A DNA stretch of 64,000 bases, taken from positions 1 to 64,000 of the forward strand of contig CACKIN010000001.1 of NCBI GenBank assembly GCA_902600205.1. The letters run 5' to 3'. This document shows, in pieces, positions 55,007 through 62,759 of the stretch (position 1 is its first letter; every line of letters begins with the position of its first letter). This DNA comes from an uncultured Pelagibacteraceae bacterium. GTDB lineage: Bacteria; Pseudomonadota; Alphaproteobacteria; Pelagibacterales; Pelagibacteraceae. Below the pieces are notes generated by a model. That model saw only the letters and a program-made list of their open reading frames with translations. It made no database searches and had not been told where the DNA came from. The translations under genes were made by a program, and so were the position numbers.

Positions 55007-56992
55007 ATGTCCCAATTTAATATTTCACCTGATGAAGTTGCAAAACTTGAAGACAAATTTGAGATAAAAAGTAACGAAAGAAAGTTAAAAAATTTCTTAA
55101 AAATATTGACTTTTGTTGCTTTGGTTACAATGTCAATTTACCATTTTTATGCCTCAGGATTTGGAACTATAAGAGATATTCTCCATAGAGGTATTCATAT
55201 TTCTTTTGTCGTAGGTCTTGTATTTTTATTTTATGGATGGAAAAATTTTGGGGTCAAACAGTCTAAAAACAAAGTTCCATACTTAGATATTTTCTTTTCA
55301 ATTTTAGTAGTTGTAACTGCACTTTATTTACCATTATTGCCTCCAGAAATATTAGCTAGCAGAGTTGGAAATCCATCAAATACTGAAGTTATTATGGGTT
55401 CAATTTTAGTTGTTTTAACTCTAGAGGCTGCAAGAAGATCTATAGGATACACGTTACCATTAATATGTATAATATTTATGATTTTTGCACTATATGGCCC
55501 TATTTTTCCTGGTGCTTTAAAACATGGTGGAAGTAGTTGGGCTGGTTTTGTTAATCATATTTATATAACTAACCAAGGAATTTATGGAATTGCAGTGGGT
55601 GTTATGGCCCAATATGTATTCTTATTCATTCTATTTGGAGTGCTTGCAACAAGAATAGGTTTGGGTCAATTATTTATTGATTTAGCAATGGTTATAGCTG
55701 GAAGATATTCTGGAGGACCAGCGAAAGTTGCAATTTTTTCCTCAGCTTTTTTAGGAACCATATCTGGATCTTCAATTGCAAATACAGTTACAACTGGTTC
55801 TCTCACAATTCCAGCAATGAAAAAAGTTGGGTACCCTCCACATTTTTCTGGTGCTGTTGAAGCCACAGCTTCTACTGGAGGGCAAATTACTCCACCTATT
55901 TTAGGAGCTGCAGCTTTTATTATGGTTGAATATTTAGAACTACCTTTAAGAGATATTTTGGCAGCAGCATTAATTCCTGCTCTACTTCATTATTTTGGTA
56001 TTTTTGTAATGGTTCATTTAGAGGCAAAAAAATTAGGTCTTAGAGGTTTAAATGAAAGTGAAGTTCCAAAATTTATAAAAATAATAAGGGATAATTGGTT
56101 AGCTATAGTCCCTTTATTTTTACTAGTATATTTAATACTGATTGGTCGTACACCAGATTATGCTGCAGTAAATGGAATCATTGCTTGTGTATTTATAGGA
56201 TTTATAAGGAAAAAAAATAGACTTACCTTTAATGATTTACTTGAGTGTCTAGCAAGAGGTGCAAAAAATACTTTAGCAGTTGGAGCAGCCGCTACTTCAA
56301 TAGGTATAATAGTTGGTGTAGTTACATTAACTGGGGTAGGATTTAGATTAGGTTATGTAGTAATTCAAACAGCCGGAGATATTGGTGGTTTCTTCTTGAA
56401 TTTTTTACCATTTAATTATTTCACACTTCAAGATCTGACGTTATTTTTTTCTTTAATATTAATTGCAATATCATGCATATTCATGGGCACAGGAGTTCCA
56501 ACCACTGCAACTTACATAATTCTTGTTGCCGTTGCTGCCCCTGCTCTCACTCAATTACAAATTGAACCAATAGTTTCACATTTTTTTGTTTTTTATTATG
56601 GTGTTTTAGCAGATATAACTCCACCAGTTGCCCTTGCAGCATATGCTGCAGCCGGTATTGCTGGATCAAACCCATTCACTACTGGTAACACAGCTTTTAG
56701 ATTAGGTATTGCAAAAGCACTTGTGCCCTTTGTATTTGTTTATTCACCATCATTATTGTTGGTTGCGCAAGGATTCAATTTCTATGATTTCTTTATTACT
56801 TTAATATCTGCAATGATTGGAATTGGATTAATTGGAATTGGTTTCACAGGATATTTATATAAATCAGTATCTACGTTTCAGAGATGGTATCTTGGAATTA
56901 TTTCATTATTATTTATTGCACCAGGTTTAAGTTCATCAATTATAGGCTTAGTTTTAGTATTACCAGTGTTTGTGCTTCAATTAAGAAAATAA
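55007..56992 (+). CDS. TRAP transporter fused permease (small plus large subunit)
   Basis: The 661-residue inner-membrane protein joins the DctQ-like four-helix part (residues about 30-170) to the DctM-like part (about 170-650), the normal arrangement for TAXI-type systems (4TM/12TM fusion). Conserved large-subunit segments include ASTGGQITPPILGAAAFIM, MGTGVPTTATYI and ADITPPVALAAYAAAGIAG. It imports the ligand of the upstream receptor using an ion gradient, presumably sodium. Only 47 bases separate the two genes. Confidence 0.95.
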   Translation: MSQFNISPDEVAKLEDKFEIKSNERKLKNFLKILTFVALVTMSIYHFYASGFGTIRDILHRGIHISFVVGLVFLFYGWKNFGVKQSKNKVPYLDIFFSILVVVTALYLPLLPPEILASRVGNPSNTEVIMGSILVVLTLEAARRSIGYTLPLICIIFMIFALYGPIFPGALKHGGSSWAGFVNHIYITNQGIYGIAVGVMAQYVFLFILFGVLATRIGLGQLFIDLAMVIAGRYSGGPAKVAIFSSAFLGTISGSSIANTVTTGSLTIPAMKKVGYPPHFSGAVEATASTGGQITPPILGAAAFIMVEYLELPLRDILAAALIPALLHYFGIFVMVHLEAKKLGLRGLNESEVPKFIKIIRDNWLAIVPLFLLVYLILIGRTPDYAAVNGIIACVFIGFIRKKNRLTFNDLLECLARGAKNTLAVGAAATSIGIIVGVVTLTGVGFRLGYVVIQTAGDIGGFFLNFLPFNYFTLQDLTLFFSLILIAISCIFMGTGVPTTATYIILVAVAAPALTQLQIEPIVSHFFVFYYGVLADITPPVALAAYAAAGIAGSNPFTTGNTAFRLGIAKALVPFVFVYSPSLLLVAQGFNFYDFFITLISAMIGIGLIGIGFTGYLYKSVSTFQRWYLGIISLLFIAPGLSSSIIGLVLVLPVFVLQLRK

Positions 56993-56995
56993 AAT

Positions 56996-57418
56996 TTATC
57001 CACCTAAGCCAGCATTTGGAAGTGGTCTTCTTAAAATTTTCCAAATTCCAACAGCACTAGCAACAAGTTTACTTTTGCATTTTAATTTACAATTTACAAA
57101 TACCATTGATTTTGTAACTTTTTGAATTTCAACTGTTCCTAATAATTCATCTCCCAAGTTAGAGGGAGCTATAAACTTAATATCTAACGAGATAGTTACA
57201 CAGGGTTTGTTGCCACTTGCTTTGTGGCAAGCAGTTCCTGCCCCAGCGTCAATAATTGTACATATATAACCACCATGGGTTATCCCAGCTTTATTTAAAT
57301 GTGTTTTTTTGATTTTTGTTTTAAACTCAAATTTTTTTTTGGTTAAAGATCTAAATAGCAAACCACCATTATGTTTCATATAACTTGGTTTACTACTTAG
57401 TTGTTCAAATTTTCTCAT
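56996..57418 (-). CDS. PaaI-type hot-dog thioesterase
   Basis: The protein of about 140 residues (start MRKFEQLSSKP at 57418; an upstream in-frame Met at 57463 is less likely) has the hot-dog segment THLNKAGITHGGYICTIIDAGAGTA, with the HGG motif of PaaI-like acyl-CoA thioesterases, and SLDIKFIAPSNLGDEL. It probably hydrolyses a small or aromatic acyl-CoA; the substrate is unknown. It converges on the TRAP permease gene with a 3-base gap. Confidence 0.85.
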   Translation of the reverse strand: MRKFEQLSSKPSYMKHNGGLLFRSLTKKKFEFKTKIKKTHLNKAGITHGGYICTIIDAGAGTACHKASGNKPCVTISLDIKFIAPSNLGDELLGTVEIQKVTKSMVFVNCKLKCKSKLVASAVGIWKILRRPLPNAGLGG

Positions 57419-57515
57419 TAGAGGATTATTGTCATAATTAATATAAATAACAAAACTAAACAAAAGAAATATATAACAGATTTTTCAAGTGATATTTTCA
57501 TTTATCCTTTCGTTT

Positions 57516-57669: not shown

Positions 57670-60600
57670 ATGAATTTAGATTTGTTAGTTCCAGACATTG
57701 GAGATTTTGAAAATGTTGAAATAATTGAAGTACTTGTAAAAAAGGGCGATAAAATTAACAAAAATGACCCTGTCGTAACATTGGAGAGTGATAAGTCGAG
57801 CGTTGAAGTACCATCTGATTATGAAGGTACTGTAGAAAATGTTAAGGTAAAAATTGGTGACAAAGTTTCAAAAGGCGATTTGATATTAACATTATCCTCA
57901 GACAAAAAATATAAGAATGAAGAAATTAGTAAAACTTTAAATGAAAAAATCCCACCTTCAACTGAGAATTTAATTAAGGAAGCTGAAAATGCTACAAAAC
58001 CTGATAACCAAGTTGAAACAAAAGTTATTGAGCCAAAACATATCAAACAAACTAGACTGATAAATGAAGTTAAGATGGTTAGTAGTAATGATGATATTGA
58101 TCCTGTTGAAACAAAAGAATGGCTAGACTCCTTAAGTGCGGTCCTACAAAATGATGGTTCAGAAAGAGCTCACTTTTTAATTAAACAATTAATTGATCAA
58201 TCCTACAAAGCTGGATCAAAAATTCCTCATACCCAAACTACTCCATACGTAAATACTGTACCTCCTGAGGAAGAAAAAAGATCTCCAGGAGATCAAAATA
58301 TAGAACGTAAGTTAAGATCATTAATAAGATGGAATGCTGCTGCAATGGTAGTTCGAGCAAATAAAAAATATCCTGAACTTGGTGGGCACATAGGAACATT
58401 TGCATCTGCAGCAACATTATATGATGTAGGAATGAATCATTTTTGGAGAGCAAAAAATAATAAATTCGGAGGTGATCTAGTATATTTTCAAGGTCATAGT
58501 GCACCTGGTATGTATGCAAGAGCCTTTCTTGAGGGAAGATTAAATGAAAAACAACTAGATAGATTTAGACAAGAGGTAAAAACAGGTGGTCTTTCTTCGT
58601 ACCCTCATCCTTGGCTAATGCCTAATTTTTGGCAGTTCCCAACTGTTTCAATGGGTATTGGTCCAATGTTAGCAATATATCAAGCAAGATTTATGAAATA
58701 TCTTATTAATAGAGGATTAATTAAAGACGAAGGAAGAAAAGTCTGGGCATTTCTTGGTGATGGAGAAATGGACGAGCCCGAGTCTCTTGGTGCAATAGGG
58801 TTAGCAGCTCGAGAAAATTTAGATAATTTAATATTTGTTGTTAATTGCAACTTACAAAGATTAGACGGTCCAGTTAGAGGAAATGGAAAAATAATTCAAG
58901 AATTAGAAGGAATTTTCAGAGGCGCAGGGTGGAATGTTTTAAAAGTCATTTGGGGTTCTTATTGGGATACTCTTTTAGCAAATGATAAGACAGGACATTT
59001 AGTAAAAATTATGAATGAGACCGTGGATGGTGAATATCAAGCTTTTAAAGCAAGAAATGGACTTTATGTTAGAGAAAAGTTTTTTGGTAAATATCCTGAA
59101 ACAACTGAATTAGTCTCATCGATGTCCGATACTGATATTTGGCGATTAAATAGAGGGGGTCATGATCCTCATAAAGTTTATGCTGCTTATGATAAAGCGG
59201 TCAATCACAAAGGAAGTCCCACAGTTATAATAGCTAAAACGATCAAAGGTTACGGTATGGGAAAAAGTGGAGAAAGTGTAAATACTACTCACCAGCAAAA
59301 AAAATTAGATATAGATGATTTGATGTATTACAGGGATAGATTTGATGTTCCTTTAACAGATGCCCAAGTCAAAAACATTGAATATTTCAAACCAGATGAA
59401 AATTCAGAAGAAATAAAATATTTAAAAAAGAGAAGGATAGAATTGGGTGGTTTTATTCCAGAAAGAACATCGTACTCAAAACCAATTAAAGCTCCAAGTA
59501 AAGATATTTTTGATTTTATGAAGACTTCAACTGGTGAAAAAGAAATGTCTACAACAATGGCTCTAGTAAGAATGCTAACTAATCTTTTAAGAGATAAAAA
59601 TGTTGCTCCTAAATTAGTTCCAATTATTCCTGATGAAGCTAGAACTTTTGGAATGGAAGGTTTCTTTCAAAAAATAGGAATTTATGCTCATGAAGGTCAA
59701 AAGTATGAGCCCGAAGACTCTGCACAACTTTCTTCTTACAGAGAAGAAAGAAGTGGTCAAGTATTAGAGGAAGGGATTACGGAGGCAGGATCCATATCAT
59801 CCTGGATTGCTGCAGGTACTGCTTACACTAATCATGACATTGAAATGATTCCAATTTATCTTTTCTATTCTATGTTTGGCTTTCAAAGAATAGGAGATTT
59901 TGCATGGGCAGCTGGAGACAGTCAAGCAAGGGGTTTTTTAATTGGTGCAACAGCTGGAAGAACAACCCTTGCAGGAGAAGGGCTTCAGCACCAAGATGGG
60001 CATAGTCATTTACTCGCATCTACAATTCCAAACTGTATATCTTACGATCCTACGTTCCATTATGAATTAGCCGTTATTTTTAGAGAGGGTTTAAGAAGAA
60101 TGCATGAAAAAAATGAAAATATTTTTTATTATATTACTACAATGAATGAAAATTATTCTCATCCTGAAATGCCAAAAGATTGTGAAGATGGGATTCTAAA
60201 GGGAATGTATAAAATAAAAGAGTCATCAAGTTCAAAAGAAGCTAAGATTCAATTATTGGGATCTGGAACAATACTTAGAGAAATGATGGCTGCATCAGAT
60301 ATACTCAAAAAAGAATATCAGGTAGACAGTGAAGTTTGGAGTGTTACAAGTTTTAACGAGTTAAGAAAAAATGGAATGGAAGTTGAGAGACAAAACTTAT
60401 TAAACCCCTCAGAAACAAACAAAAAATCGTATATAGAGGAGTGCTTGGGAAAACAGCAAGGACCTATCCTTGCAGCTACTGATTATATGAGAATTAATGC
60501 AGATCAAATAAGATCTTTTACGAAAAAAAGCTTTTATTCTCTTGGTACAGACGGATATGGAAGAAGCGACACAAGAAAAAATTTAAGAAGTTTTTTTGAA

Positions 60601-60735
60601 GTAGATAAAAAACATATAGTTGCTTACAGCCTTAGTGTTTTAGCAAAAGAGCAACTCATTACTTCAAAGTATGCTGAAGATGCAATAAAAAAGTATAATA
60701 TTGATAAAAATAAACCCATGCCAACAAAGATGTAA
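57670..60735 (+). CDS. aceE: Pyruvate dehydrogenase E1 (homodimeric AceE type) with N-terminal lipoyl domain
   Basis: E1 decarboxylates pyruvate with thiamine diphosphate and reductively acetylates lipoyl groups. Residues 1-78 of this 1021-residue protein are a biotinyl/lipoyl domain (VPDIGDFENVEIIEVLV, then ESDKSSVEVPS with the likely lipoyl Lys42). A low-complexity linker covers about 79-140. From about residue 141 it is a full AceE: WLDSLSAVLQNDG, WRAKNNKFGGDLVYFQGH, the ThDP motif GDGEMDEPE (GDG at 363-365), and AGEGLQHQDGHSHLLA. Lipoyl domains normally sit on E2. The E2 gene directly follows with no gap and lacks one. Confidence 0.95.
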   Translation: MNLDLLVPDIGDFENVEIIEVLVKKGDKINKNDPVVTLESDKSSVEVPSDYEGTVENVKVKIGDKVSKGDLILTLSSDKKYKNEEISKTLNEKIPPSTENLIKEAENATKPDNQVETKVIEPKHIKQTRLINEVKMVSSNDDIDPVETKEWLDSLSAVLQNDGSERAHFLIKQLIDQSYKAGSKIPHTQTTPYVNTVPPEEEKRSPGDQNIERKLRSLIRWNAAAMVVRANKKYPELGGHIGTFASAATLYDVGMNHFWRAKNNKFGGDLVYFQGHSAPGMYARAFLEGRLNEKQLDRFRQEVKTGGLSSYPHPWLMPNFWQFPTVSMGIGPMLAIYQARFMKYLINRGLIKDEGRKVWAFLGDGEMDEPESLGAIGLAARENLDNLIFVVNCNLQRLDGPVRGNGKIIQELEGIFRGAGWNVLKVIWGSYWDTLLANDKTGHLVKIMNETVDGEYQAFKARNGLYVREKFFGKYPETTELVSSMSDTDIWRLNRGGHDPHKVYAAYDKAVNHKGSPTVIIAKTIKGYGMGKSGESVNTTHQQKKLDIDDLMYYRDRFDVPLTDAQVKNIEYFKPDENSEEIKYLKKRRIELGGFIPERTSYSKPIKAPSKDIFDFMKTSTGEKEMSTTMALVRMLTNLLRDKNVAPKLVPIIPDEARTFGMEGFFQKIGIYAHEGQKYEPEDSAQLSSYREERSGQVLEEGITEAGSISSWIAAGTAYTNHDIEMIPIYLFYSMFGFQRIGDFAWAAGDSQARGFLIGATAGRTTLAGEGLQHQDGHSHLLASTIPNCISYDPTFHYELAVIFREGLRRMHEKNENIFYYITTMNENYSHPEMPKDCEDGILKGMYKIKESSSSKEAKIQLLGSGTILREMMAASDILKKEYQVDSEVWSVTSFNELRKNGMEVERQNLLNPSETNKKSYIEECLGKQQGPILAATDYMRINADQIRSFTKKSFYSLGTDGYGRSDTRKNLRSFFEVDKKHIVAYSLSVLAKEQLITSKYAEDAIKKYNIDKNKPMPTKM

Positions 60736-61662
60736 ATGTCTGATCAATCCATCAAAACATCTGCAAGTCCAAAAGTAAGGAAGTTTGCTAGAGAATTAGG
60801 TGTTGATATAAGTAATGTTAAAGGTTCGGAAAGATTAGGTAGGGTTGTAGAAAAGGATTTAAAAGAATATGTTTCTTCTAACATAAACCAAACATATGAT
60901 GTAAAAGAAGTTAAAAATGAAAAAGAAATCAAAAGTGAATATCAACATTCAGATTTTGGCGAAGTTGAAATTAAAGACATTCCTAGAGTAAAAAAAATTG
61001 CCGCTCCTCATCTAGTCAACTCTTGGACTAATATTCCACATGTAACAAATCATGATGAAGCTGATATTACTGAGATGGAAGAGTTTAGAAGTTCACTTAA
61101 AGATAATTATAGTGGAGAAAAAATAAAAATTACCCCACTAGCATTTATTATAAAAGCATTGGTAGTATCACTAAAAAAATTTCCATCTTTTAATTCATCA
61201 ATTGATGATATTGAAAATGGTAAAATTACATTTAAAAAGTATTTTCACATCGGCATCGCAGTTGACACCCAACATGGACTTATGGTTCCCAAGATTAGGG
61301 ATGCTAATCAAAAAGATATCAACGAGTTAAGTAAGGACTTGAAAAAAGTAAGTGATGATTGCAGAAATCTAAAAATTGATAAAAAAGAATTCTTTGGGGG
61401 ATCGATGACTATTACCAGTTTGGGTGGAATTGGAGGATCGTTCTTTACTCCAATAATTAATTTTCCTGAAGTTGCTATCCTTGGAATAGGCAGAAGCTAC
61501 AAAAAACAGTTATTCATAGATGGAAAATTTGTTCCAAGAACTATTTTACCTTTATCACTCTCATATGACCATCGAATTATAGATGGAGCAGAGGCTGCTA
61601 AATTTAATAATGAATTAAAAGATAATTTAGGAGCAAATTTTGCTTACAACCTAAGTAAATGA
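60736..61662 (+). CDS. aceF: Pyruvate dehydrogenase E2 (dihydrolipoamide acetyltransferase) without lipoyl domain
   Basis: The 308-residue protein begins directly with the peripheral subunit-binding domain (ASPKVRKFARELGVDISNVKGSERLGRVVEKDL, about residues 10-48). A short linker and the acetyltransferase core follow: IPHVTNHDEADITEMEEFR, TITSLGGIGGSFFTPIINFPEVAILGIGR, and the catalytic SYDHRIIDG with His279. Usual E2 proteins carry one to three lipoyl domains ahead of the binding domain; there is none here. The core catalytic residues are intact, so it should accept acetyl groups from the lipoyl domain carried on E1. No E3 gene is adjacent. Confidence 0.95.
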   Translation: MSDQSIKTSASPKVRKFARELGVDISNVKGSERLGRVVEKDLKEYVSSNINQTYDVKEVKNEKEIKSEYQHSDFGEVEIKDIPRVKKIAAPHLVNSWTNIPHVTNHDEADITEMEEFRSSLKDNYSGEKIKITPLAFIIKALVVSLKKFPSFNSSIDDIENGKITFKKYFHIGIAVDTQHGLMVPKIRDANQKDINELSKDLKKVSDDCRNLKIDKKEFFGGSMTITSLGGIGGSFFTPIINFPEVAILGIGRSYKKQLFIDGKFVPRTILPLSLSYDHRIIDGAEAAKFNNELKDNLGANFAYNLSK

Positions 61663-62759
61663 TTACAAAATTTGAAATATTAACCGATGATCTTCAAGTC
61701 CATTTTAGTGGAGAAAACTCGGAAATTTTTCCAAATATTTGGTTGAGAGATCATGCAAAAGATGAGCAAAATTGGGATAAAAGGTCTAGTCAAAGAAAGA
61801 CTTTTACAGCATCTTTAGATCTAAATTTAAAAATAAAAAATGCAGAAATATTAGAAAATGGCAAATATTTGAGTATTTCCTGGCCTGATTTAGAGAAGCC
61901 AGTCAAATATTCATCTGAATTTCTAATTAATAACAAGATAAATAAAAAAAGAGAAACAAAATCAAATTTAAAAATCTGGAAGTCAAAAGAAATTCATCGG
62001 GAGATATTTGTAGACTATAAATCTATCTTAACAAATGATGGATTTAAAAACTTTTTAAAAAGTCTACATACTTATGGTTTCTTAGTAATTAGAAATTGCG
62101 AAACAAATTTAAAATGTGTTGAAAAAATTGCTAATAAAATTGGATATGTAAGAAACTCTATATTTGGAGGACTATGGAGTTTTGAGTCTGACGAAAATAA
62201 AGCTGATAGCGCTTATACTCAAGAAGAGTTAAGACCACATACAGACTCAACATATAGTAATGATGCTCCAGGATTGCAATTACTATTGTGTTGCGATTAT
62301 AATGCTAAGGGTGGTGACTCAATAATGGTTGACGGACTAAAGATTGCTGAAACAATCAAAAAAGAAGACCAGCAAATGTATGAGTTGCTTACAAAAATAA
62401 ATGTAAAGGGTAATTACATTGGTGATGGAGTTTTTCTAGAAGCGGAAAGACCAATATTTAAATTAAATAAAAATAATGAAATTATTCAAGTAAGTTTTAA
62501 TAATTACGATCGAGCACCGTTTAGATTTGAAAAGGATTTAACTTTAAAGTTTTATGAAGCAATCAAAGAATTTGATCTACTTGCTAATAATAAAGATTAC
62601 CAATGGAGACATGTACTTAAACCCGGAGAGCTTTTAATATTTAATAATTGGCGAATACTTCATGGAAGAGGATCATTTAGTGGAGTAAGAAAAATGTCCG
62701 GATGTTATATAAACAAAGAGGATTTTGATAGTTCTTGTAAGATGAACGGAATAAATTAA
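61659..62759 (+). CDS. Gamma-butyrobetaine hydroxylase-like Fe(II)/2-oxoglutarate dioxygenase
   Basis: The 366-residue protein has an N-terminal DUF971/GBBH-like domain (NIWLRDHAKDE) and a TauD-type dioxygenase domain with iron ligands His194-x-Asp196 (RPHTDSTY) and distal His335 (RILHGRGSF). The Cys residues that bind zinc in the N-terminal domain of gamma-butyrobetaine hydroxylase are absent. The substrate may be a trimethylammonium compound, but this is inference. It overlaps the E2 gene by 4 bases, which suggests co-expression with pyruvate dehydrogenase. Confidence 0.82.
   Translation: MITKFEILTDDLQVHFSGENSEIFPNIWLRDHAKDEQNWDKRSSQRKTFTASLDLNLKIKNAEILENGKYLSISWPDLEKPVKYSSEFLINNKINKKRETKSNLKIWKSKEIHREIFVDYKSILTNDGFKNFLKSLHTYGFLVIRNCETNLKCVEKIANKIGYVRNSIFGGLWSFESDENKADSAYTQEELRPHTDSTYSNDAPGLQLLLCCDYNAKGGDSIMVDGLKIAETIKKEDQQMYELLTKINVKGNYIGDGVFLEAERPIFKLNKNNEIIQVSFNNYDRAPFRFEKDLTLKFYEAIKEFDLLANNKDYQWRHVLKPGELLIFNNWRILHGRGSFSGVRKMSGCYINKEDFDSSCKMNGIN

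Follow-up and report, generated by a model that had tools for sequence, protein, structure and literature searches.

In textbooks the pyruvate dehydrogenase complex (PDH) is the model of a machine with a swinging arm, which is borne by the E2 core, and several departures from this plan are known. The E1 of Zymomonas mobilis is reportedly of the alpha/beta type and its E2 is said to keep a lipoyl domain (LD), so that the LD of its E1 would be an additional one. The presence of an LD on the E1 subunit of the Z. mobilis PDH is cited in PMC7873978, together with LDs on the E3 subunits of Mycoplasma hyopneumoniae, Neisseria meningitidis and Alcaligenes eutrophus, and for M. hyopneumoniae lipoate was located on Lys42 of PdhD by liquid chromatography-tandem mass spectrometry (PMC7873978). 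In the hybrid of PDH and 2-oxoglutarate dehydrogenase (ODH) described from actinobacteria (OdhA and AceF), an E2 core devoid of its own LD uses that of another chain, the LD on AceF serving the fused E1o-E2o (PMC10415282, PMC10581250). The locus considered here is a pair of abutting genes for E1 and E2 at positions 57670 to 61662 of the window, by which the whole analysed stretch of 64,000 nucleotides is meant (contig CACKIN010000001.1 of assembly GCA_902600205.1), from a bacterium of SAR11 (Pelagibacteraceae), whose closest named relatives are uncultured Pelagibacteraceae genomes and whose group is described as the ocean's most abundant heterotrophic bacterioplankton (PMC10030771). In this pair, the LD stands at the N-terminus of an AceE-type E1 and the adjacent E2 carries none, and it is highly probable that the E1 domain is the swinging arm of the SAR11 PDH, the LD of E2 having been lost as redundant here and in several other lineages.

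Compared with the canonical AceE/AceF/Lpd complex (TIGR00759, TIGR01348), the AceE-type E1, the peripheral subunit-binding domain (PSBD), the E2 core, the adjacency of the two genes and the LD family are the same, whereas the position of the LD, on E1 and not on E2, and the C-terminal tail of E2 differ. The fusion of an LD to the E1 subunit is shared with Z. mobilis; however, the E1 here is of the AceE type (TIGR00759) and not of the alpha/beta type. With the E3-bound systems it is the carriage of an LD by a subunit other than E2 that is shared, the domain residing there on E3 and here on E1, while the actinobacterial hybrid draws on an LD of AceF and SAR11 on one of AceE. Neither an AceE bearing an LD nor an AceE-linked E2 lacking one was described in the titles and abstracts listed by searches of the open-licence PubMed Central literature, and a paper on SAR11 subclade IIIa mentions aceEF and multiple aceE copies, its main text not containing the word 'lipoyl'; a PDH arm rebuilt in this way thus appears not to have been described in the literature searched.

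The E1 open reading frame (57670-60735, plus strand, as are all features of E1 and E2 below) encodes 1021 amino acids, the first 78 of which (57670..57903) constitute the LD: the Pfam family Biotin_lipoyl matches residues 6-75 with 70.0 bits against a cut-off of 22.1, and in the AlphaFold2 (AF2) model the same 78 residues form a beta-strand domain, with the mean predicted local distance difference test (pLDDT) of 10-residue blocks at 77-88. Lys42 (codon 57793..57795), in the context LESDKSSVEV, is the predicted lipoylation site (motif ESDKSSVEV), and ESDKSSVE is seen in other SAR11 E1, the lysine-motif readout of the survey of 115 sequences given below showing the neighbouring GDK instead in some rows. 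A flexible linker follows at residues 79-138 (57904..58083), where the pLDDT falls below 50 across residues 80-140, and behind it AceE is folded. This AceE-type region (residues 139-1021, 58084..60732) satisfies the equivalog model TIGR00759 over residues 139-1019 (1440 bits, cut-off 859.9) and aligns with few gaps over residues 141-1018 to the pyruvate dehydrogenase E1 of PDB 1l8a; the catalytic and cofactor stretches GDGEMDEPES and NCNLQRLDGPV are kept in that alignment and fall in invariant alignment columns, and E1/transketolase-type domains are matched in Pfam as well.

The E2 open reading frame (60736-61662, 308 amino acids) begins with its ATG directly behind the E1 stop. By Pfam it consists of a PSBD (E3_binding, residues 10-42, 60763..60861) and an acetyltransferase catalytic domain (2-oxoacid_dh, residues 78-298, 60967..61629), with no Biotin_lipoyl match; the acetyltransferase core and PSBD of an AceF-type E2p (TIGR01348, PRK11854) are therefore present, and the one to three N-terminal LDs of such a protein are lacking. 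In NCBIfam, the protein covers profile positions 283-580 of the 587 of TIGR01348 with 328.5 bits, under the cut-off of 552.1, so that the LD-less E2 of SAR11 is also a case of concern for annotation. The motif DHRIIDG is kept where PDB 7b9k has DHRVIDG, and the core model matches E2p core folds (best Z 25.5, root-mean-square deviation 2.2 over 199 residues). A preliminary description of this DNA, which had read from it a complete LD with Lys42 and a linker on E1, an E2 beginning with the E3-binding domain, intact catalytic motifs and abutting genes, is borne out in all these respects.

The same E1 architecture runs through the family. At least one N-terminal LD was found on 123 of the 130 SAR11 AceE loci read; four of the other seven are cut by contig ends (L057, L063, L161, L201), two are interrupted and hold the LD in a separate frame (L033, L160), and the last (L035) is a diverged paralog, the only one among the SAR11 AceE read whose N-terminus is intact and bears no LD. 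That the fusion is an artefact of assembly or gene calling, for which the fragmentation of the window genome (a 1.07 Mb draft in 44 contigs, 77.6% complete) might speak, is a possibility of practically no weight, since the architecture recurs in dozens of genomes, the LD-bearing AceE lies in several one-contig genomes, and the 22 different E1 sequences in the cluster of the window are all 1021 amino acids long. Outside SAR11 no LD was seen on any of 65 AceE read as DNA (47 from the nearest-relative search, 6 from the class-level search and 12 from the phylum-level search, the last chosen for long open frames), and all 51 readable adjacent E2 carry at least one LD, their E1 having none. In a class-level search of 385 genomes, AceE of 57-61% identity was obtained from six genomes outside the family, none of these matches starting before query residue 134; in the phylum-level search (397 genomes, 169 with a match), none of the listed matches from outside the family begins before residue 99, with a limit of 1e-60 that could hide a separate LD row. 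The phyla beyond Pseudomonadota are barely sampled in these searches, and the nearest-relative search gives the best 80 of at least 589 matches.

The survey of LD-bearing AceE and its partner, which the preliminary description had proposed, also revealed that the partner E2 often keeps an LD. For the 115 distinct E1 sequences that have an E2 next to them, the numbers of LDs on E1 and E2 are 1-1 in 53, 1-0 in 50, 2-1 in four and 1-2 in three, with E1 incomplete in five; six loci in which no adjacent E2 was called (L016, L033, L034, L035, L197, L214) were left out before counting. These counts are not prevalences because of the bias in locus sampling: L145-L171 are the best family-search matches and thus near the window, and L172-L185 were picked for a single reported match. 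Some loci represent the same genome from two collections. Two N-terminal LDs on E1 combined with one on E2 are observed in L118, L119, L198 and L200 (two on E1 also in L197/L214), and in the three 1-2 loci (L194, L195, L196) the second LD of E2 is divergent and has lost its lysine. Such a natural series of architectures (1-1, 1-0, 2-1, 1-2) in related genomes could be used to test whether substrate channelling depends on where the arm sits, how many arms there are and whether a cage is assembled.

Constraint on the LD of E1 nearly equals that on AceE: among the 22 sequences of the window cluster, the LD has a median ratio of nonsynonymous to synonymous substitution rates (dN/dS) of 0.028, close to the 0.024 of the AceE region, and the linker one of 0.156. 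Such purifying selection speaks for a functional relocation rather than decay, as the preliminary description had supposed. It would be very improbable, then, that the domain is a regulatory or lipoate-storing appendage in a clade whose PDH is decaying; a few genes are indeed interrupted in single draft genomes (E1 in L160 and L033, E2 in L016), and 37 of 398 family genomes, many of them incomplete, have no E1 match at 1e-12, but against it the LD, AceE and the E2 core are all strongly constrained and the catalytic stretches are intact.

The search for another lipoylated partner covered 22 genomes whose E2 lacks an LD (20 with a completeness of 90% or more), in which Biotin_lipoyl is matched by E1 in 22/22, by a frame of SucB length in 21/22 and by a frame of AccB length in 22/22, with a further partial match around the cut-off in a 447-amino-acid frame in 2/22. 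The names SucB-like and AccB-like follow length, motif and neighbours as read in the window genome only; there, the frame of AccB length, which we take to be AccB-like, has the biotin-type motif EAMKT and is followed by a presumably AccC-like frame, and the SucB-like LD protein adjoins the only E3 gene over the cut-off. In E. coli the E3 gene lies behind that of E2, which is not the case here. Another lipoylated PDH subunit was considered and set aside, the E3 of the window genome having no LD and no third 2-oxoacid_dh protein being present in it besides the two found. No LD-bearing acetyltransferase other than the SucB-like one was thus encountered. Of 8 genomes tested for LipA, 7 possess it, that of the window among them. 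Another LD-bearing E2 serving this E1, named in the preliminary description as a counter-case, accordingly narrows to the SucB-like protein, which from its sequence might or might not fill that role.

That this SucB-like E2 of 2-oxoglutarate dehydrogenase serves both complexes in trans, the E1 domain being accessory, we regard as quite improbable. Its location next to the single E3 gene above the cut-off agrees with such a role, and the shared use of one LD is on record in actinobacteria, where AceF acts for OdhA (PMC10415282). Against this stand the near equality of constraint on the E1 LD and AceE, the retention of the LD in the SAR11 AceE read, the diverged paralog excepted, and the LD tree, in which the E1 LD is not grouped with that of SucB, though the SucB row forms a very long branch.

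As to how an arm on E1 would operate, in PDH of the E. coli type the PSBD of E2 is described as bound by the N-terminal region of E1 (PMC6270654). PDB entries 9h1n and 4qoy each contain chains matching both the E1 and the E2 of the window; in 9h1n, chain A matches E2 residues 8-52 and chain C, an E1 N-terminal peptide, matches E1 residues 141-182 (58090..58215), both as sequence matches. The N-terminal segment of the SAR11 E1 would, then, dock on the PSBD of E2, and with the LD attached directly before that segment, the docked domain would hang beside the PSBD, near the former place of the E2 LD, which would explain why the latter became dispensable. The disordered linker of about 60 residues would let the putative Lys42-lipoyl visit the E1 active site, the E2 acetyltransferase, to which the acetyl group would be passed, and E3 on other PSBDs, reached from a neighbouring E1. 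That an LD borne by another subunit can work is reported from actinobacteria, where OdhA uses that of E2p (PMC10415282). The preliminary description had expected a change in both geometry and stoichiometry of the complex. Stoichiometry should indeed change, with one LD per bound E1 chain versus one to three per E2 chain, whereas the geometry is probably altered less than claimed, because the N-terminal region of E1 binds the PSBD.

The linker itself is not uniform. The distance from the lysine to AceE has a median of 97.5 residues in 18 representatives with an LD-less E2 versus 88 in 26 with an E2 LD (Mann-Whitney p 2e-4), which is suggestive of lengthening as compensation for the loss of the E2 LD. 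Within the linker lies a 13-residue motif, IPPSTENLIKEAE (residues 94-106, 57949..57987), present in 104 of the 123 LD-bearing E1 loci and not found in 9 of 44 representatives (L058, L060, L061, L062, L118, L186, L198, L199, L200); a similar pattern was found in none of the non-SAR11 frames scanned. The ratio of nonsynonymous to synonymous polymorphism (pN/pS) is 0.045 in the motif versus 0.284 in the remaining linker, and AF2 places a helix at residues 96-108 with low confidence, so this segment may be a docking helix.

The history of the two domains was approached through a tree of the catalytic regions, built from 44 representatives of SAR11 with 8 outgroup pairs, in which SAR11 forms one clade (100/100). 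The 18 LD-less E2 in this tree require seven changes, at least six of them on supported branches, and the placement of all LD-less E2 in a single clade was rejected with E1 alone (approximately unbiased test, p-AU 2.0e-7) and with E2 alone (2.5e-6). Since the 51 non-SAR11 E2 and the deepest SAR11 clade (7/7 representatives) possess an E2 LD, the least change is implied by loss, and E2 seems to have shed its arm several times after the arm had become redundant. In the LD tree (77 columns), a branch supported at 99/97 separates the LDs of outgroup AceF/E3 and of SucB from those of SAR11 E1 and E2; the proximity of the latter two suggests that the E1 domain most likely arose by copying the LD of E2 within the family, an origin that 77 columns do not settle. 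The ancestor of the family would thus have acquired an N-terminal LD on AceE while E2 kept its own, and later, in the window lineage and several others, the redundant E2 LD and its linker would have been lost with the frame intact. A single translocation from E2 to E1 is ruled out by the many relatives with an LD on both subunits; the domain "moved", as the preliminary description had put it, in the sense of a net result and not of one event.

An unlikely variant of this history is that the LD-less E2 allele arose once and spread by recombination, or that LDs were regained, in place of some seven losses, the present-day mechanism being the same. Recombination is known to be frequent in SAR11, a short tract over the E2 start alone would not show in a tree of either E1 or the E2 core, and change counts do not tell gain from loss; on the other side, the E2 N-termini left behind differ among lineages, and the single clade is rejected on E1 and E2 separately.

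The reading of the E1 domain as the working arm, with repeated losses on E2, is to be set against a number of less favourable observations. The parsimony count by itself cannot separate loss from gain of the E2 LD. The E1 LDs do not form one clade in the LD tree (one clade is not rejected, p 0.22), 28 of them being mixed among E2 LDs at weak support and the three second E1 LDs standing nearer the outgroup (80/48). The longer linker is not significant on phylogenetically independent pairs (about 3 of 6 pairs agree with the trend and none runs against it, p 0.25), the AF2 models are of monomers only, the LD-bearing SucB-like protein could in principle be used, and the absences in the window genome, given its completeness of 77.6%, lean on more complete relatives.

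The second peculiarity of the SAR11 proteins is the C-terminus of E2. In actinobacteria, a three-residue Phe-containing C-terminal insertion is reported to keep E2 trimers from forming the cage (PMC10415282, PMC10581250), and the SAR11 tail shows some resemblance to this insertion of E2p. In the window the tail LGANFAYNLSK (61627..61659) is longer than usual and keeps the Phe; an LGx[ND]FA extension ends 119 of 119 complete SAR11 E2 tails, 31-32 residues from the DHR motif. The non-SAR11 tails have 29 residues in 47 of 50 and 32-33 in the other three, which lack LGx[ND]FA; by eye this pattern is in none of the 50, a looser pattern counting six. The SAR11 tails are mostly two residues longer than those outside, versus three in the actinobacterial insertion. 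On ranking PDB matches to the tail, Corynebacterium 6zzm came first (E 3.6e-6), barely above Azotobacter 1dpc (5.3e-6), the best single stretch being higher in 1dpc (27.3 vs 23.7 bits); only the two Corynebacterium alignments of the five reach the Phe, and those of M. tuberculosis E2p (9y6t, 9y7v) stop before it. The fold search of the E2 model gave the trimer idea no support, as cage-forming E2p stand on top (8eqn, Z 25.5; 4n72, 25.4; versus 23.9 for 6zzi) and the C-terminal helix is not placed. It is therefore only as a tentative and rather doubtful suggestion from the tail comparison that PDH could have been rebuilt twice in SAR11, with the arm on E1 and the E2 core cut to trimers by a Phe-containing extension paralleling the actinobacterial one. 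If so, E1 dimers and E2 trimers would be linked through PSBDs into a small and perhaps network-like complex, with the number of arms set by E1 occupancy, in contrast to a 24-mer cage that bears the arms on its core.

Some further observations concern AceE in the family and the surroundings of the locus. The AceE-type paralog of L035 (1492-4143, minus strand), about 53% identical, without LD and without an adjacent E2, scores 1279 bits with the aceE model, over its cut-off, and 1282 with the 'AKGDH_not_PDH' model, under its cut-off; matches to a second AceE-type paralog also exist in G011, G013, G018, G027, G158 and G475. Four genomes of 92-97% stated completeness (G526, G564, G588, G009) gave no AceE match. 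The genes on the 5' side of E1 vary: in many relatives it is preceded by a gene that is thiolase-like, a name we assume, and in the window and L009 by a transporter-like one, the window having a transporter-like frame at 55007-56992 and, between it and E1, a thioesterase-like frame on the minus strand (56996-57463). Behind E2, a frame of 366 amino acids (61659-62759), presumably a dioxygenase of the butyrobetaine-hydroxylase type by its look, overlaps the E2 end by 4 bases and is found in the same position in L007-L009.

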